Shown here one piece after another: positions 57,381 to 62,779 of a stretch of DNA of 64,000 nt. The position numbers were made by a program, and so were the translations under genes. The stretch comes from Paludisphaera mucosa (GTDB lineage: Bacteria; Planctomycetota; Planctomycetia; Isosphaerales; Isosphaeraceae). The notes under the pieces are model-generated. The model did no database searches and was not told where the DNA came from. It saw only the letters and a program-made list of their open reading frames with translations. Positions within the stretch are counted from its first letter, which is position 1, and each line of letters begins with the position of its first letter. The stretch is from positions 1,178,001 to 1,242,000 of the forward strand of contig NZ_JARRAG010000002.1 of NCBI RefSeq assembly GCF_029589435.1, written 5' to 3'.

Positions 57381-58136
57381 ATGGACGAGCCGCGGACGAT
57401 CTCGAAGAAAGCCTACTTTCGGCTCACGATGGCGCTGACCCTGCTGACCTGCGCCGTGGCGACCCTTGCCGCCAACGTCCTGGTCAGCGCGTGCGGAGGT
57501 CGGATCGAACCGGGCCTGCTGGCCGGCCTGACCGGGCTCTACATCATCCTCGCTCGCGCCCTGGCCGAGTGGATCCTCCGCCTGCGCGACCTGACCCGGC
57601 GCGGGACCTCCGTCGAGATTCACGCCCGATCTCTCTTCGGCCCGACCGAGGACGTCGCGCCGGGGGAGACGGTCGAGGCCCGCGTCCCCCCGGGAACTCT
57701 CCTCTTCCTCCTGTGCGGCGCGCCGGTCATGGTCCTGATCTGCTACGCCGGCGCGTGGGTTTTCGAGGAGCAAATCTGGATGCGATGCCTCTCGATCGGC
57801 ATGGGTTTCTTCTTCCTGGCCTGCTTCGTCGAGAACATCGTGGATTACGGGAAGCCCATCGCCCGGGTCGACGCCGACGGCGTGAACGGCTATCCGTCCC
57901 ATCGGGCCCTCTGGCGGCGGTTCGTCCCCTGGTCCGACGTGTACAGTTGCGAGGTCCAGACGCTGAACGACACCTTCGGCAAGCCGATCCTGCTGCGGCC
58001 CGTGTTGAAGGGGCGTCACGGCGAGAAACTCATGGCGTTGTGCCTGTTCTACACCCCGATGGTGGAGCAGGAACGGATCGTGAAGGCGATCAAGACGAGG
58101 CTGCCGGAGACCGAGGTCGACGCCTGGCTGACCTGA
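57381..58136 (+). CDS. Hypothetical membrane protein
   Basis: 251 residues with four hydrophobic segments: LTMALTLLTCAVATLAANVL, GLLAGLTGLYIILARALAEW, then after a short loop LFLLCGAPVMVLICYAGAWV and IGMGFFFLACFVENIVDYG. The C-terminal 100 residues (RVDADGVNGYPSHRALWRRF; VPWSDVYSCEVQTLNDTFGK) are soluble and resemble the PH-like domains of bacterial membrane proteins, where a W-x-D motif opens the strand. No family recognised with confidence. It follows the DUF1501 gene by 22 bases and may be the last gene of that operon. Confidence 0.78.
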   Translation: MDEPRTISKKAYFRLTMALTLLTCAVATLAANVLVSACGGRIEPGLLAGLTGLYIILARALAEWILRLRDLTRRGTSVEIHARSLFGPTEDVAPGETVEARVPPGTLLFLLCGAPVMVLICYAGAWVFEEQIWMRCLSIGMGFFFLACFVENIVDYGKPIARVDADGVNGYPSHRALWRRFVPWSDVYSCEVQTLNDTFGKPILLRPVLKGRHGEKLMALCLFYTPMVEQERIVKAIKTRLPETEVDAWLT

Positions 58137-58297: not shown

Positions 58298-61200
58298 ATG
58301 CGGCCCATCCTCATCGCCCTTGCGCTCGCGGCGACGGCCCTCGGAGCGGCCGTCGCCGACGACGCGCCGATGACCTTGCACGAGCAGCGGCGCGTCCCCT
58401 CCGCCGGCCGGCCCGACGCCTACGAGGTCGTCCAGAAGACGGCGAGCTGGCGGCCCTCGAAGACGGCCCTGATCGTCTGCGACATGTGGGACGAGCACTG
58501 GTGCAAGGGGGCGACCCGGCGCTGCGGCGAGCTGGCCCCGGTGCTGAACCAGGTCGTGGCCGCCGCCCGCAAGAAGGGCGTGCTGATCGTCCACTCGCCC
58601 AGCGGCTGCATGGACGCCTACAAGGACCACCCCGCGCGGCTGCGGGCGAAGTCGGCCCCGAAGGCCGCCGACCTGCCGAAGGACATCGGCGCGTGGTGCT
58701 ACAAGATCCCCTCGGAGGAGCGCGGCGAGTACCCCGTCGACCAGGCCGACGGCGGCTGCGACGACGGGCCGCGATGCGCCGAGCGGACCGCCTGGAAGTC
58801 GCAGGACCCGAGGATCGAGATCCGCGACGAGGACGCGATCAGCGACTCGGGCGAGGAGGTCTGGAACCTGCTGGCGAGCCGCGGGGTCGAGCACGTCATG
58901 CTGACGGGCGTTCACACGAACATGTGCGTGCTCGGCCGCCCGTTCGGCCTCCGCAACCTGGCGAAGAACGGCAAGGACGTCGTCCTGATCCGCGACCTGA
59001 CCGACACGATGTACAACTCGCGGCGGCCGCCCTACGTCTCGCACTTCGAAGGCACGGCGCGGGTCGTCGAGCACATCGAGAAGTTCGTCTGCGCGACGAT
59101 CACGTCGACCGACCTGACCGGCCGCCCGGCCTTCGCCTTCAAGCCCGACGACCGCCCCCGCGCCGTGTTCCTGATCGGCGACGACGAGTACAAGACCGCC
59201 GAGACGCTCCCGGCCTTCGCCCAGACCGAGCTGGAGCCGGCCGGCGTGCGCTGCACGTTCGCGATCGCCGACCCCAAGGCGCCCAACGACTTCCCCGGCG
59301 TCGAGGCGCTCGACGACGCCGACCTGCTCTTCGTCAGCGCCCGCCGACGCGCGCCGACGGATGCTCAGATGAAGATCATCCGCCGCTTCGTCGAGGCCGG
59401 AAAGCCGGTCGTCGGCATCCGCACCGCCAGCCACGCCTTCGACACCCGAGGGACGGCCCCGGCCGGCCACGCCGAATGGACGACGTTCGACCCCGACGTC
59501 CTGGGCGGCCACTACACGGGCCACCACGAGAACGGCGTCGAGCCGACGATCGCCCTCGCCGAGCACGCCAAGGGCCACCCGATCCTCGACGGCGTCGAGC
59601 CCGGCTTCCGCAGCCCCGGCTCGCTCTACAAGGCCGGCCCGCTCGCGGCGACGACGATCCCGCTGCTGATCGGCGCGATCGAGGGCCACCCCGCCGAGCC
59701 CGTCGCCTGGGTCAACCTCAAGGGCCGGTCTCGGGTTTTCTACACGTCGCTCGGCGCGCCGGGCGACTTCGAGACGCCCGCCTTCCGACGCCTCTTGCGC
59801 AACGCGGTCTTCTGGGCGCTCGACCGGCCTGCGCCCGTCGCCGCGATCGCGCCGCCGCCGTTCAAGGTCCCCGACGACCTGGCGGTCGACCTGGTGCTCG
59901 CGGAGCCGATCGTCCGTCAGCCGTTGAACATCCATTTCGACGAACGGGGCCGGATGTGGGTCGTGCAGTACGCCCAGTATCCCGACCCCGCCGGGCTGAC
60001 GATGCTCAGCCGCGACGGCGTCTGGCGCGTGGTGTACGACAAGGTCCCGGTCGCCCCGCCGAACCACGTCCGCGGCCTGGACCGGATCTCGATCCACGAG
60101 GACGTCGACGGCGACGGGACGTACGACCGCCACAAGACGTTCGTGCAGGGCCTGAACATCGCGACGTCCGTCGCCGTCGGCCGCGAGGGGGTCTGGGTCC
60201 TCAACCCGCCCTACCTCCTCTTCTACCCCGACCGCGACGGCGACGACGTCCCCGACGGCGACCCCGAGGTCCGACTGCAGGGCTTCGGCATGGAAGACTC
60301 GCATTCGGTCGTCAACAGCCTGACCTGGGGCCCCGACGGCTGGCTCTACGCGGCGCAGGGGAGCACGGTCTCGGGCCGGGTCATGAGGCCCGGTCAGGAG
60401 GGCGAGCCCACGCGTTCGCTCGGCCAGCTCATCTGGCGCTATCACCCCGAAAAGCGTCTTTACGAGGTCTTCGCCGAGGGGGGCGGCAACGCGTTCGGGG
60501 TCGAGATCGACGCCAAGGGGCGGGTCTTCTCGGGCCACAACGGCGGCGACACCCGCGGGTTCCACTACGTGCCGGGCGGTTATCTGCAAAAAGGGTTCGA
60601 CAAGCACGGGCCGCTCTCCAACCCCTACGCCTTCGGCTACTTCCCGGCCATGAAGCACGACAAGACCCCGCGCTTCACGCACGACTTCACGATCTACGAA
60701 GGGGGCCGGTTCCCGAAGAAGTACGACGGCGTGCTGTTCGGCGTCGCCCCCCTGCTCCATCACGTGGTCATGAGCGAGGTGATCCCGGACGGCTCGACCT
60801 TCCGCACCCGCGACGTCGGCTTCGCCATGGAGTCGGAAGACCCGATGTTCCGCCCGGTCGACGTCACCCTCGGCCCCGACGGCGCGCTCTACGTCGCCGA
60901 CTGGAACGACGCCCAGGTGAACCACTACCGCAACCACGAAGGCCTGGTCGACCAGGCCACCGGCCGCATCTACCGCATCCGCGCCCGCGATGCGAAGCCC
61001 ACCGGCCCGCTCCCCGACCTGGGCACGCTCACCGCGCCCGAACTGATCGACCGCCTCGACGACCCCAACCGCTGGGTCCGCCAGACCGTCCTCCGCCTGC
61101 TCGGCGATCGGCCCCGGAGTTCTCAGGAGGTGGTCCCCGAGCTGCGCCGTCGCCTCGCGGCGCGGACGGGCCAGCCGGCCCTCGAGGCGCTCTGGGCGCT

Positions 61201-62779
61201 CAACCTGATCGGCGGGCTCGACGAGGCTTCGACCCTGACGGCGCTACGCCACGAGGACACGTTCGTGCGGACCTGGGCGGTGCGGCTGGCCTGCGAGTCT
61301 GATCACCTGCCGACGTTCCCCGGCGGTAAGCCGTCGACCGCATCGGTTCCCTATCATGTGACCGGCCCGGTCGCCGCGGCCCTTGTCGATCTGGCCAGGA
61401 ACGACCCCCGTGTCGAGGTCCGCAGCCAGCTGGCGTCCTCGGCGCGCAGGTTGGACTCCGGGGGCTGGTTCCAGATCCTGAAGAACCTCGCGAGGCGGGG
61501 CGAGGACGTCGGCGATCCGTACGTCCCCCTGCTGATCTGGTGGGCGATCGAAGCGCGTGTGGCGGACGATCCCGGCTCCGTCCTCCTGCTGTTCCAGGAC
61601 CCGGCGATGTGGGACGCGCCGATCTCCGTCTCGACGCTCCAGGAGCGCTTGATGCGCCGCTTCGCCGCCGAGGGGGGGCAGAAGAACCTGAGCTATTGCG
61701 AGAAGCTCCTTTTGCTGGCGCCGGAGCCCCCGCACGCCGCCCGGCTGATGGCCGGGCTGGAGGCGGCCTACGTGGGACGCTCGACCGCGGGCCTCCCCTT
61801 CAGGCTGGCCGACGCGCTGGAGACGTTCGGCAGGTCGTCCGTCGTGACGGGGCTGCGTCGGGCCAGGCCCGAGGCGGTCGCCGAGGCGACGAAGCTCCTG
61901 TCCAGCCCCGACGGCGACCGCGAGAAGCAGCTGCAGTACCTCCGCGTGCTGGGCGAGGTCCGCATCGACGCCTGCCGCCCGGCGGTCCAGGCGCTCGCCC
62001 TGAACTCGCCGGTGAACCCGATCCGCTCGGCGGCGCTCTCGGCGCTGGCGGTTTTCGACGACCCCGAGATCGCGGGCGAGGTGCTGAAGACCTATCCGTC
62101 GCTCCCCGACGACGTGCTCGCCTCGGCGTGGAACCTCCTCGCCACCCGGCGGGCGTGGGCCGCGACCTTTTTGGAGGCGGTCGCCGCCGGCCGGATCGAC
62201 GCGAAGACGATCCCCCGCGAGGCCGTCGCCCGGTTCCGCGCCTTGAAAGATCCGAAGGTCGAGGAGATGGCCGCCCGCGCGTTCGGCGCGAGCGAGCCGG
62301 CCGGGGCGTCGACCCGCAAGGACCGGATCACCGCGCTCTCCGGGGTCGTCCGCGCCGGCGGCGGCACGCCCAAGGCGGGCCGGGCCATCTTCCACGAGCG
62401 TTGCGAGCGCTGCCACGCCCTGTTCGGCAAGGGGGGGAAGGTCGGGCCCGAGTTGACCACGTTCCGCCGCGACGACCTCGACTCGGTCTTGCTGGCGATC
62501 GTCGACCCCTCGGCCGAGATCCGCGAGGGCTACGTCGCCTACGCCCTCGCCACGACCGACGGCCGCGTCCTGTCCGGCGTCTGCGCCGACCAGGATCCGC
62601 GCATCGTCGTCCTCCGCTGCGCCGACGGCGAGGAGCGGACGTTCGCCCGCGAGGACGTCGAGTCGTTCGACCCCTCGAAGGCCTCCATCATGCCCGACGG
62701 CCTGCTCGACGACCTGAGCGACGCCCAGGTCCGCGACCTGCTCTCGTACCTTCGCGTCAGCCAGCCGATCATCGATTAA
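58298..62779 (+). CDS. Five-part fusion: isochorismatase-like hydrolase, ThuA, PVC-type dehydrogenase, HEAT repeats, cytochrome c
   Basis: 1493 residues in one frame. A signal peptide (1-20) precedes an isochorismatase-like domain: TALIVCDMWDEHWC with D62 and LTGVHTNMCVLGRPF with catalytic-type C210. From about 286 a ThuA-like domain (AVFLIGDDEYKTAETLPAFA; FDPDVLGGHYTGHHENGVEP) runs to 510. A beta-propeller dehydrogenase of the PVC membrane-bound type follows (about 522-1010: PLNIHFDERGRMWVVQYAQY; MFRPVDVTLGPDGALYVADW). HEAT-like repeats follow to about 1330. A C-terminal cytochrome c site is C1369-x2-C-H1373, in FHERCERCHALFGKGGKVGP. Dehydrogenase, HEAT and haem together are a known planctomycetal arrangement; the isochorismatase head is an added feature. 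It may oxidise a sugar or nitrogen compound in the periplasm. Start 58298 has GGAG upstream. Confidence 0.88.
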   Translation: MRPILIALALAATALGAAVADDAPMTLHEQRRVPSAGRPDAYEVVQKTASWRPSKTALIVCDMWDEHWCKGATRRCGELAPVLNQVVAAARKKGVLIVHSPSGCMDAYKDHPARLRAKSAPKAADLPKDIGAWCYKIPSEERGEYPVDQADGGCDDGPRCAERTAWKSQDPRIEIRDEDAISDSGEEVWNLLASRGVEHVMLTGVHTNMCVLGRPFGLRNLAKNGKDVVLIRDLTDTMYNSRRPPYVSHFEGTARVVEHIEKFVCATITSTDLTGRPAFAFKPDDRPRAVFLIGDDEYKTAETLPAFAQTELEPAGVRCTFAIADPKAPNDFPGVEALDDADLLFVSARRRAPTDAQMKIIRRFVEAGKPVVGIRTASHAFDTRGTAPAGHAEWTTFDPDVLGGHYTGHHENGVEPTIALAEHAKGHPILDGVEPGFRSPGSLYKAGPLAATTIPLLIGAIEGHPAEPVAWVNLKGRSRVFYTSLGAPGDFETPAFRRLLRNAVFWALDRPAPVAAIAPPPFKVPDDLAVDLVLAEPIVRQPLNIHFDERGRMWVVQYAQYPDPAGLTMLSRDGVWRVVYDKVPVAPPNHVRGLDRISIHEDVDGDGTYDRHKTFVQGLNIATSVAVGREGVWVLNPPYLLFYPDRDGDDVPDGDPEVRLQGFGMEDSHSVVNSLTWGPDGWLYAAQGSTVSGRVMRPGQEGEPTRSLGQLIWRYHPEKRLYEVFAEGGGNAFGVEIDAKGRVFSGHNGGDTRGFHYVPGGYLQKGFDKHGPLSNPYAFGYFPAMKHDKTPRFTHDFTIYEGGRFPKKYDGVLFGVAPLLHHVVMSEVIPDGSTFRTRDVGFAMESEDPMFRPVDVTLGPDGALYVADWNDAQVNHYRNHEGLVDQATGRIYRIRARDAKPTGPLPDLGTLTAPELIDRLDDPNRWVRQTVLRLLGDRPRSSQEVVPELRRRLAARTGQPALEALWALNLIGGLDEASTLTALRHEDTFVRTWAVRLACESDHLPTFPGGKPSTASVPYHVTGPVAAALVDLARNDPRVEVRSQLASSARRLDSGGWFQILKNLARRGEDVGDPYVPLLIWWAIEARVADDPGSVLLLFQDPAMWDAPISVSTLQERLMRRFAAEGGQKNLSYCEKLLLLAPEPPHAARLMAGLEAAYVGRSTAGLPFRLADALETFGRSSVVTGLRRARPEAVAEATKLLSSPDGDREKQLQYLRVLGEVRIDACRPAVQALALNSPVNPIRSAALSALAVFDDPEIAGEVLKTYPSLPDDVLASAWNLLATRRAWAATFLEAVAAGRIDAKTIPREAVARFRALKDPKVEEMAARAFGASEPAGASTRKDRITALSGVVRAGGGTPKAGRAIFHERCERCHALFGKGGKVGPELTTFRRDDLDSVLLAIVDPSAEIREGYVAYALATTDGRVLSGVCADQDPRIVVLRCADGEERTFAREDVESFDPSKASIMPDGLLDDLSDAQVRDLLSYLRVSQPIID

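Follow-up and report, generated by a model that had tools for sequence, protein, structure and literature searches.

What task could bring together, in one chain, an isochorismatase-like head, a ThuA domain, a dehydrogenase-like propeller, HEAT repeats and a haem domain behind an export-type leader? The question is raised by a gene of Paludisphaera mucosa (Planctomycetota, Isosphaeraceae; host genome 8.2 Mb), found on the forward strand at 58298..62779 of the window, by which we mean the whole 64,000-nucleotide stretch of contig NZ_JARRAG010000002.1 that was analysed. A preliminary description of this DNA had read the gene as one continuous frame holding a signal peptide and five domains, and had suggested that a single enzyme hydrolyses and then oxidises a substrate.

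The first of these claims holds. From ATG 58298 to the stop codon at 62777-62779 (+), the gene is a complete frame of 1493 amino acids without internal stop, in which a signal peptide, an isochorismatase-fold head, a ThuA domain, a DUF7133/TIGR02604 propeller, HEAT repeats and a CxxCH haem domain follow one another in this order. All profiles searched domain by domain (Isochorismatase, ThuA, DUF7133, HEAT_2, Cytochrom_C, TIGR02604 and TIGR02603) scored over their cut-offs. Upstream, the frame remains open as far as a GTG at 57491; translation probably begins at ATG 58298, and an ATG start with a hydrophobic leader recurs in the other five Paludisphaera genomes. The leader itself, MRPILIALALAATALGAAVADDAP (about aa 1-20, 58298..58357, +), resembles a Sec-type signal peptide with a putative cleavage site, has a hydropathy peak, and is similar across the genus. 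The same frame is present in six of the six genomes of the genus examined, and is complete in the other five (L046-L050), with open frames of 1494-1538 aa. Within the genus, dN/dS was below 1 for every domain, with a maximum of 0.83 (haem domain against L050), these being approximate values from a simple Nei-Gojobori calculation under strong GC bias. The fused gene is conserved under purifying selection.

The first domain (aa 22-282, 58361..59143, +) matches the Isochorismatase profile PF00857 over aa 56-238 (58463-59011) at 39.5 bits (cut-off 27), in agreement with the earlier assignment of an isochorismatase-like head with D62 and C210. An AlphaFold2 model of head and ThuA was confident (mean pLDDT 94), and the solved folds nearest to the modelled head were those of RutB (Z 18.5; superposition over 176 residues, rmsd 3.2), triuret hydrolase (17.9) and biuret hydrolase (17.5). 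RutB, the triuret hydrolase TrtA and the biuret hydrolase BiuH are Asp-Lys-Cys hydrolases, and they share with the head the fold and the positions of Asp and Cys. Eight residues are unchanged in 122 of 122 aligned heads, a set that excludes ten loci taken as repeat genomes and matches of at most 150 bits (L092 and L093 among them): D62 at the triad aspartate position (58481..58483, +), H67, R75, R91, H99, D179 (58832..58834, +), which by comparison with canonical paralogues of the same genome lies near the site of the absent triad lysine, H206 in the GVHTNMC motif (58913..58915, +), and C210 at the nucleophile position (58925..58927, +).

Unlike RutB, TrtA and BiuH, the head has no conserved lysine, carries an export leader and is fused. 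At column 177, the expected place of the triad lysine, Lys occurs in 11 of the 122 heads, and a wider scan found it in at most 16 at any of columns 174-180 and in at most 57 at any of columns 155-192. Because hhalign, run on heads against canonical paralogues, aligned the second half only, this column was fixed by a backward count from the GxxTxxC motif; on this count, the own-genome paralogue L001 carries K opposite D177 of the head, the loop alignment being uncertain by about two residues. The head also has three extra residues after CVL relative to paralogues in its own genome. As judged from these alignments, it is an isochorismatase-fold protein with an altered catalytic site, and its reaction may thus differ from amide hydrolysis. 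The exported cysteine hydrolase of the preliminary description accordingly stands as to its fold, its export-type leader and its fusion; in the canonical sense of that name it is unsupported, since the triad position shows no conserved lysine.

Such a site raises the alternative of a pseudo-enzyme, that is, a sugar-binding or structural domain that has kept the isochorismatase fold. The 111 heads without a lysine at the expected column would fit this, as would the observation that in the scanned relatives the best Pfam stretch mostly covered the profile's C-terminal part. However, the invariance of all eight residues goes beyond what a scaffold needs, and the head evolves under constraint like that of the other domains (dN/dS 0.24-0.43 within the genus, by the same approximate calculation, and inside their range). 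We consider an inactive head unlikely.

The ThuA domain that follows (aa 284-512, 59147..59833, +) matches PF06283 over aa 329-507 (59282-59818) at 49.6 bits (cut-off 33.4), and its model matches ThuA-like structures at Z 19.7-21.5 (4e5v, 21.5; 1t0b, 20.1). The Cys of class I glutamine amidotransferases is absent from its elbow, the consensus of 59 sequences reading IGIRTASHAF in the stretch that we take to be the nucleophile elbow. The propeller (aa 522-897, 59861..60988, +) scores 233.4 bits against DUF7133 (cut-off 27) and 259.3 bits against TIGR02604 (cut-off 122.2; best stretch aa 593-896). The model of propeller and HEAT repeats was poor (mean pLDDT 67.2), and on this model the top structural matches of the propeller were AA12 (Z 17.1), the PQQ sugar dehydrogenase 3a9g (17.0) and, at a comparable score, DFPase (16.8). 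AA12 and the soluble PQQ sugar dehydrogenases together (6h7t, 3a9g, 2ism, 1cru) matched the low-confidence propeller at Z 14.4-17.1; in a Foldseek search with the propeller-HEAT model, clathrin and other helical-repeat proteins ranked above the sugar dehydrogenases. In contrast to these enzymes, the fused protein has its haem within the same polypeptide, C-terminal to the HEAT repeats. PqqE did not reach its cut-off in any of the 45 family genomes, nor in any of 14 control genomes, so that this search had no positive control; PQQ might also be taken up from outside.

The HEAT-repeat region (aa 905-1345, 61010..62332, +) is helical in the model and matches HEAT_2 in two stretches, the best at aa 914-996 (41.3 bits, cut-off 27.7). 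The C-terminal haem-binding domain (aa 1358-1486, 62369..62755, +) matches TIGR02603 at 109.4 bits (cut-off 68.15) and, over aa 1359-1417, Cytochrom_C at 24.8 bits (cut-off 21.3). Its CERCH motif (C1369-H1373, 62402..62416, +) confirms the haem site that had been placed at C1369. The domain is shared with Kustd1711, a diheme cytochrome of Kuenenia (7zs0), as are the CxxCH and an axial-type Met, although Kustd1711 has two haem sites and no match to the other domains. M1465 (62690..62692, +) aligns with the Kustd1711 Met that mutant structures 7zs1 (title: M292C) and 7zs2 replace by Cys and His, respectively, and is likely to be the second axial haem ligand. The alignment to Kustd1711, together with the position of M1465 at the methionine replaced in these two mutants, bears out the earlier view that the haem domain is suited to electron transfer. 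A TIGR02604 propeller and a TIGR02603 haem domain with CxxCH, both over cut-off, characterise the protein as a PVC-type dehydrogenase-cytochrome.

The complete five-domain frame was found in 10 of 45 family genomes, namely that of the window, five others of its genus, and one genome from each of four other genera (G014, G018, G021, G024). Contig-cut pieces of the fusion occur in four more (G019, of which L232 is a second piece, G022, G023 and G025). Seventeen family genomes have a head-ThuA frame without the dehydrogenase part (contig-cut in L067), five have ThuA ahead of the head, two have the head alone (contig-cut in one of them), and seven have no close head. Across 392 sampled genomes of the phylum, the head was present in 63 at E up to 1e-35, and five-domain frames besides that of the window were found in G242, G246, G282 and G369, with frames cut at one end in G424 and G022. 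The fusion, full or contig-cut, was also seen in at least six of the best 80 of 583 relatives (L094, L095, L096, L123, L140, L141), five of these being the same contigs as in G032, G021, G018, G025 and G246. A comparison of fused and separate genes across planctomycetes, as the preliminary description had envisaged, thus places the fusion in the whole genus, in four more genera and in other planctomycete families; the commonest setting of the head is with ThuA in a smaller protein. The head occurs in 46 of the 49 sampled planctomycete genomes that have the dehydrogenase group, and this group in 46 of the 63 that have the head, ancestry being a confounder of both counts.

In the P. mucosa genome, 36 stretches match all or part of the fused protein, a count that includes the protein itself and often takes in several stretches of one gene. 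Among them is a second, stand-alone head (L078:6633-7607, C2:4394767; open frame of 325 aa, 49-50% identity), which has counterparts in all six Paludisphaera genomes, and these fall within one clade of stand-alone heads. Three heads (L110, L111, L164) lie on contigs labelled Actinomycetota, Acidobacteria and Chitinophagaceae, by transfer or mis-binning.

Did the parts come together once? A tree built from 47 dehydrogenase domains calls for five changes of the fused label, of which starred branches force two, and a single clade of fused dehydrogenases was rejected (p-AU 0.0065; 19 rows, with L232 as fused, a group picked after the tree was seen). On a quick tree of 128 heads, where the contig-cut L054 is scored as fused, the label requires six changes, of which starred branches force five. 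Both trees leave out repeat genomes, and the dehydrogenase tree also leaves out domains below 380 bits or covering fewer than 330 residues. With one fused clade rejected, a single origin of the fusion is unsupported. The parts are also found as separate, adjoining genes. In L204, the ATG of the dehydrogenase lies ten bases beyond the head-ThuA stop, and in two Aquisphaera loci, L073, whose contig is also that of A. insulae L163, and L074, the order on one strand runs from head-ThuA through an MFS transporter and an enolase-superfamily gene to the dehydrogenase. Label changes on the trees and these adjoining arrangements indicate that the parts of the fusion were joined or split several times; an early fusion followed by repeated splits fits as well as repeated fusion. 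In four loci of one genus (L252-L255), a distance of 10-12 kb separates head-ThuA from a dehydrogenase gene, and in L253 a GH5-like gene lies in between; the dehydrogenase gene bears a ThuA in L253-L255 and is cut in L252.

The partners of the head in related proteins are mostly of a carbohydrate-related kind. Heads are fused to SMP-30/gluconolactonase-like propellers (L162, L155, L256, L258), to an acetyl-xylan-esterase-like domain (L257, the match being just under cut-off), and to NPCBM and chitobiase-C-terminal domains (L092, L093), and two more come with weakly matched galactose-binding-like domains (L166, L170); in five other scanned relatives (L137, L144, L157, L135, L252) no further named domain was found. 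A beta-galactosidase/GH2-like domain, matched weakly, stands ahead of the propeller in six of seven scanned orthologues (L204, L207, L208, L216, L222, L227; not found in L205), passing a cut-off in L207 only, and a second scan found it before the propeller in one of two (weakly in L141, not in L209). One 1503-aa frame (L113:9866-14374) joins a head to an HZS_alpha middle domain and an FGE-sulfatase domain.

Within the window, the neighbours of the fused gene are PSCyt1-DUF1549-DUF1553, DUF1501 and CutC genes, none of them sugar-related. We set DUF1549 and DUF1501 aside as functional partners: both lie in the stretches examined from four of the five other genomes of the genus and neither in the L049 stretch, while other genera have them at 24-47% identity or lack them. 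A wider stretch of the L049 contig (L094) has a DUF1549 gene about 10 kb away. The CutC gene is convergent with the fused gene, sharing four bases with it at the stops (62776-62779), and CutC also adjoins the head gene in L051, L055, L057 and L058. On the same strand upstream, 57381-58136 encodes a 251-aa protein with no Pfam match, for which the loci searched held a counterpart beside the fused gene only in L046.

Other genes were found near the head in relatives. The MFS transporter of Aquisphaera best matches a D-galactonate transporter model, with a score under the cut-off, and its enolase-superfamily neighbour matches MR_MLE_C and no NCBIfam model. Genes of this enolase superfamily adjoin ThuA-head genes in L087 and L088 and lie near the fused gene in L213. 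As a fixed partner, the enolase-superfamily gene was rejected: copies of at least 64% identity were present in 36 of the 45 family genomes, yet lay within about 10 kb of a head in only four of the 36, and the genus Paludisphaera has only a relative of 35-40% identity. An SDR resembling KduD/gluconate 5-dehydrogenase occurs in eight head-ThuA loci (the query's included, the other seven at 67-81% identity, with three of these seven about 3-4 kb from the head); the two SDRs scanned fell under the cut-offs of the models that carry these names. The MFS and the SDR are each linked to the head in a minority of loci. Among the other scanned neighbours, no family was matched in L086, L157 and L169, and L152 has DUF1549/DUF1553 proteins.

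Experimental work gives a few points of comparison. One experimentally tested member was found under the family names in the text available, Lac161_ORF7 from a Chthoniobacter-like metagenome clone, which hydrolysed lactose when purified, with a Km of 1.8 mM (PMC5342196); a second paper, PMC7823827, contains a mention. By its reported domains, Lac161_ORF7 resembles the fused protein in its TIGR02604 propeller, HEAT repeats and haem domain with CxxCH, and differs in that the available part of the report gives three domains, with neither isochorismatase nor ThuA (PMC5342196). In Caulobacter, lactose 3-dehydrogenase LacABC is described in the accessible text as oxidising a disaccharide in the periplasm, after which a separate, proposed periplasmic hydrolase, a DUF1080 protein, acts (PMC9007349). 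By reported function, LacABC and the DUF1080 protein are a precedent for oxidation followed by hydrolysis, there encoded by separate genes. According to the part of PMC6683767 available, thuA and thuB of the thuEFGKAB operon take part in palatinose and trehalose degradation, and a 2013 paper cited there ties the operon to 3-keto derivatives, by its title; ThuA is common to this operon and the fused protein, being a separate gene in the former. The head and the five-domain fusion were not found described in the accessible text of the open-licence literature, among the matches listed.

With confidence just short of even, we favour a reading in which the fused protein is an exported, multi-step sugar-oxidising machine whose head and ThuA domains process the substrate or its oxidised product. 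Outside the cytoplasm, the DUF7133 propeller would oxidise a sugar or glycoside and hand electrons to the protein's own C-terminal c-type haem, from which they would reach the respiratory chain. The compound handled by head and ThuA would be the same one, most probably once it has been oxidised to a lactone or keto-sugar, and the sugar-acid-like product of this step would be imported and broken down. We infer the enzymatic activity of each domain, the substrate, the order of the steps and the fate of the product from several lines of evidence. These are the domains and haem site, with top propeller matches that include AA12 and PQQ sugar dehydrogenases as well as DFPase at much the same score; the union of head-ThuA with one and the same dehydrogenase group in several parts of the trees, along with the neighbouring genes of L204 and Aquisphaera; the gluconolactonase-like, esterase-like, NPCBM and galactose-binding-like partners and the GH2-like domain before the propeller; the galactonate-type MFS, MR_MLE_C gene and KduD-like SDR near heads in relatives; and both the lactose hydrolysis reported, in the text available, for Lac161_ORF7 and the presence of the head in nearly all sampled genomes with the dehydrogenase group.

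Several of the same observations also weigh against the sugar-oxidising reading. The neighbours in the window are not sugar genes, the MFS and SDR links are in the minority with models under cut-off, and the enolase-superfamily gene is near the head in few genomes and has only a distant relative in the window's genus. PqqE was over cut-off nowhere, controls included, the propeller matches come from a low-confidence model for which helical-repeat proteins ranked higher, ancestry confounds the co-occurrence of head and dehydrogenase, and the dehydrogenase tree forces two changes only.

The order given in the preliminary description, in which cleavage of an amide, ureido or ester bond by the head comes before oxidation of the resulting product by the propeller, is an improbable alternative. 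The head folds nearest to ureidoacrylate, triuret and biuret amidohydrolases and is N-terminal in the chain, and the seventeen family genomes with head-ThuA and no dehydrogenase part imply that the module can stand unfused. However, the triad lysine of such enzymes is not conserved, the partner domains and those neighbours that can be named are mostly carbohydrate-related, and several of the seventeen genomes have a dehydrogenase of 64-73% identity elsewhere. Chain order, moreover, says nothing on reaction order, and ThuA comes before the head in five family genomes. That the protein 'hydrolyses and then oxidises' was therefore not borne out, the neighbours in relatives fitting oxidation first at least as well.

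Less probable still is that the domains are tethered only for co-export or stoichiometry, each with its own substrate. This would account for L057 and L058, where head-ThuA lies beside CutC with the dehydrogenase part absent, as against the fused L055 of the same genus, also beside CutC, and for the many orthologues of each part that are unlinked; yet the same parts are joined at several places in the trees and recur as gene neighbours, which is unexpected for unrelated steps. Finally, the chance that sequencing or assembly fused two genes is negligible, and we rule it out: third-codon-position GC is 0.86-0.99 in each of fifteen 300-base blocks, so evenly high that there is no break at about 59150 or 59860, the two junctions for which the preliminary description had wanted continuity confirmed, and five further genomes have the same frame.

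The sugar-oxidising reading leaves room for a bolder one, which we hold to be doubtful while worth stating. The head may represent a new catalytic class within the isochorismatase fold, exported, lysine-less and sugar-acting, with an Asp/His/Cys site. Together with ThuA, it would form a portable module that planctomycetes have repeatedly plugged onto oxidising or lactone-opening propellers, and the one chain seen here would perform oxidation, opening of a ring or bond, and electron transfer in a sugar-acid route outside the cytoplasm that has not otherwise been described. An active head, if true, would be new chemistry on a familiar fold. For the family at large, the recurrent fusions link TIGR02604-type proteins with a defined module and, as far as some relatives go, with genes of a sugar-acid type as well. 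Species bearing the module are in culture (Aquisphaera, Singulisphaera, Paludisphaera), and its function is thus directly testable.
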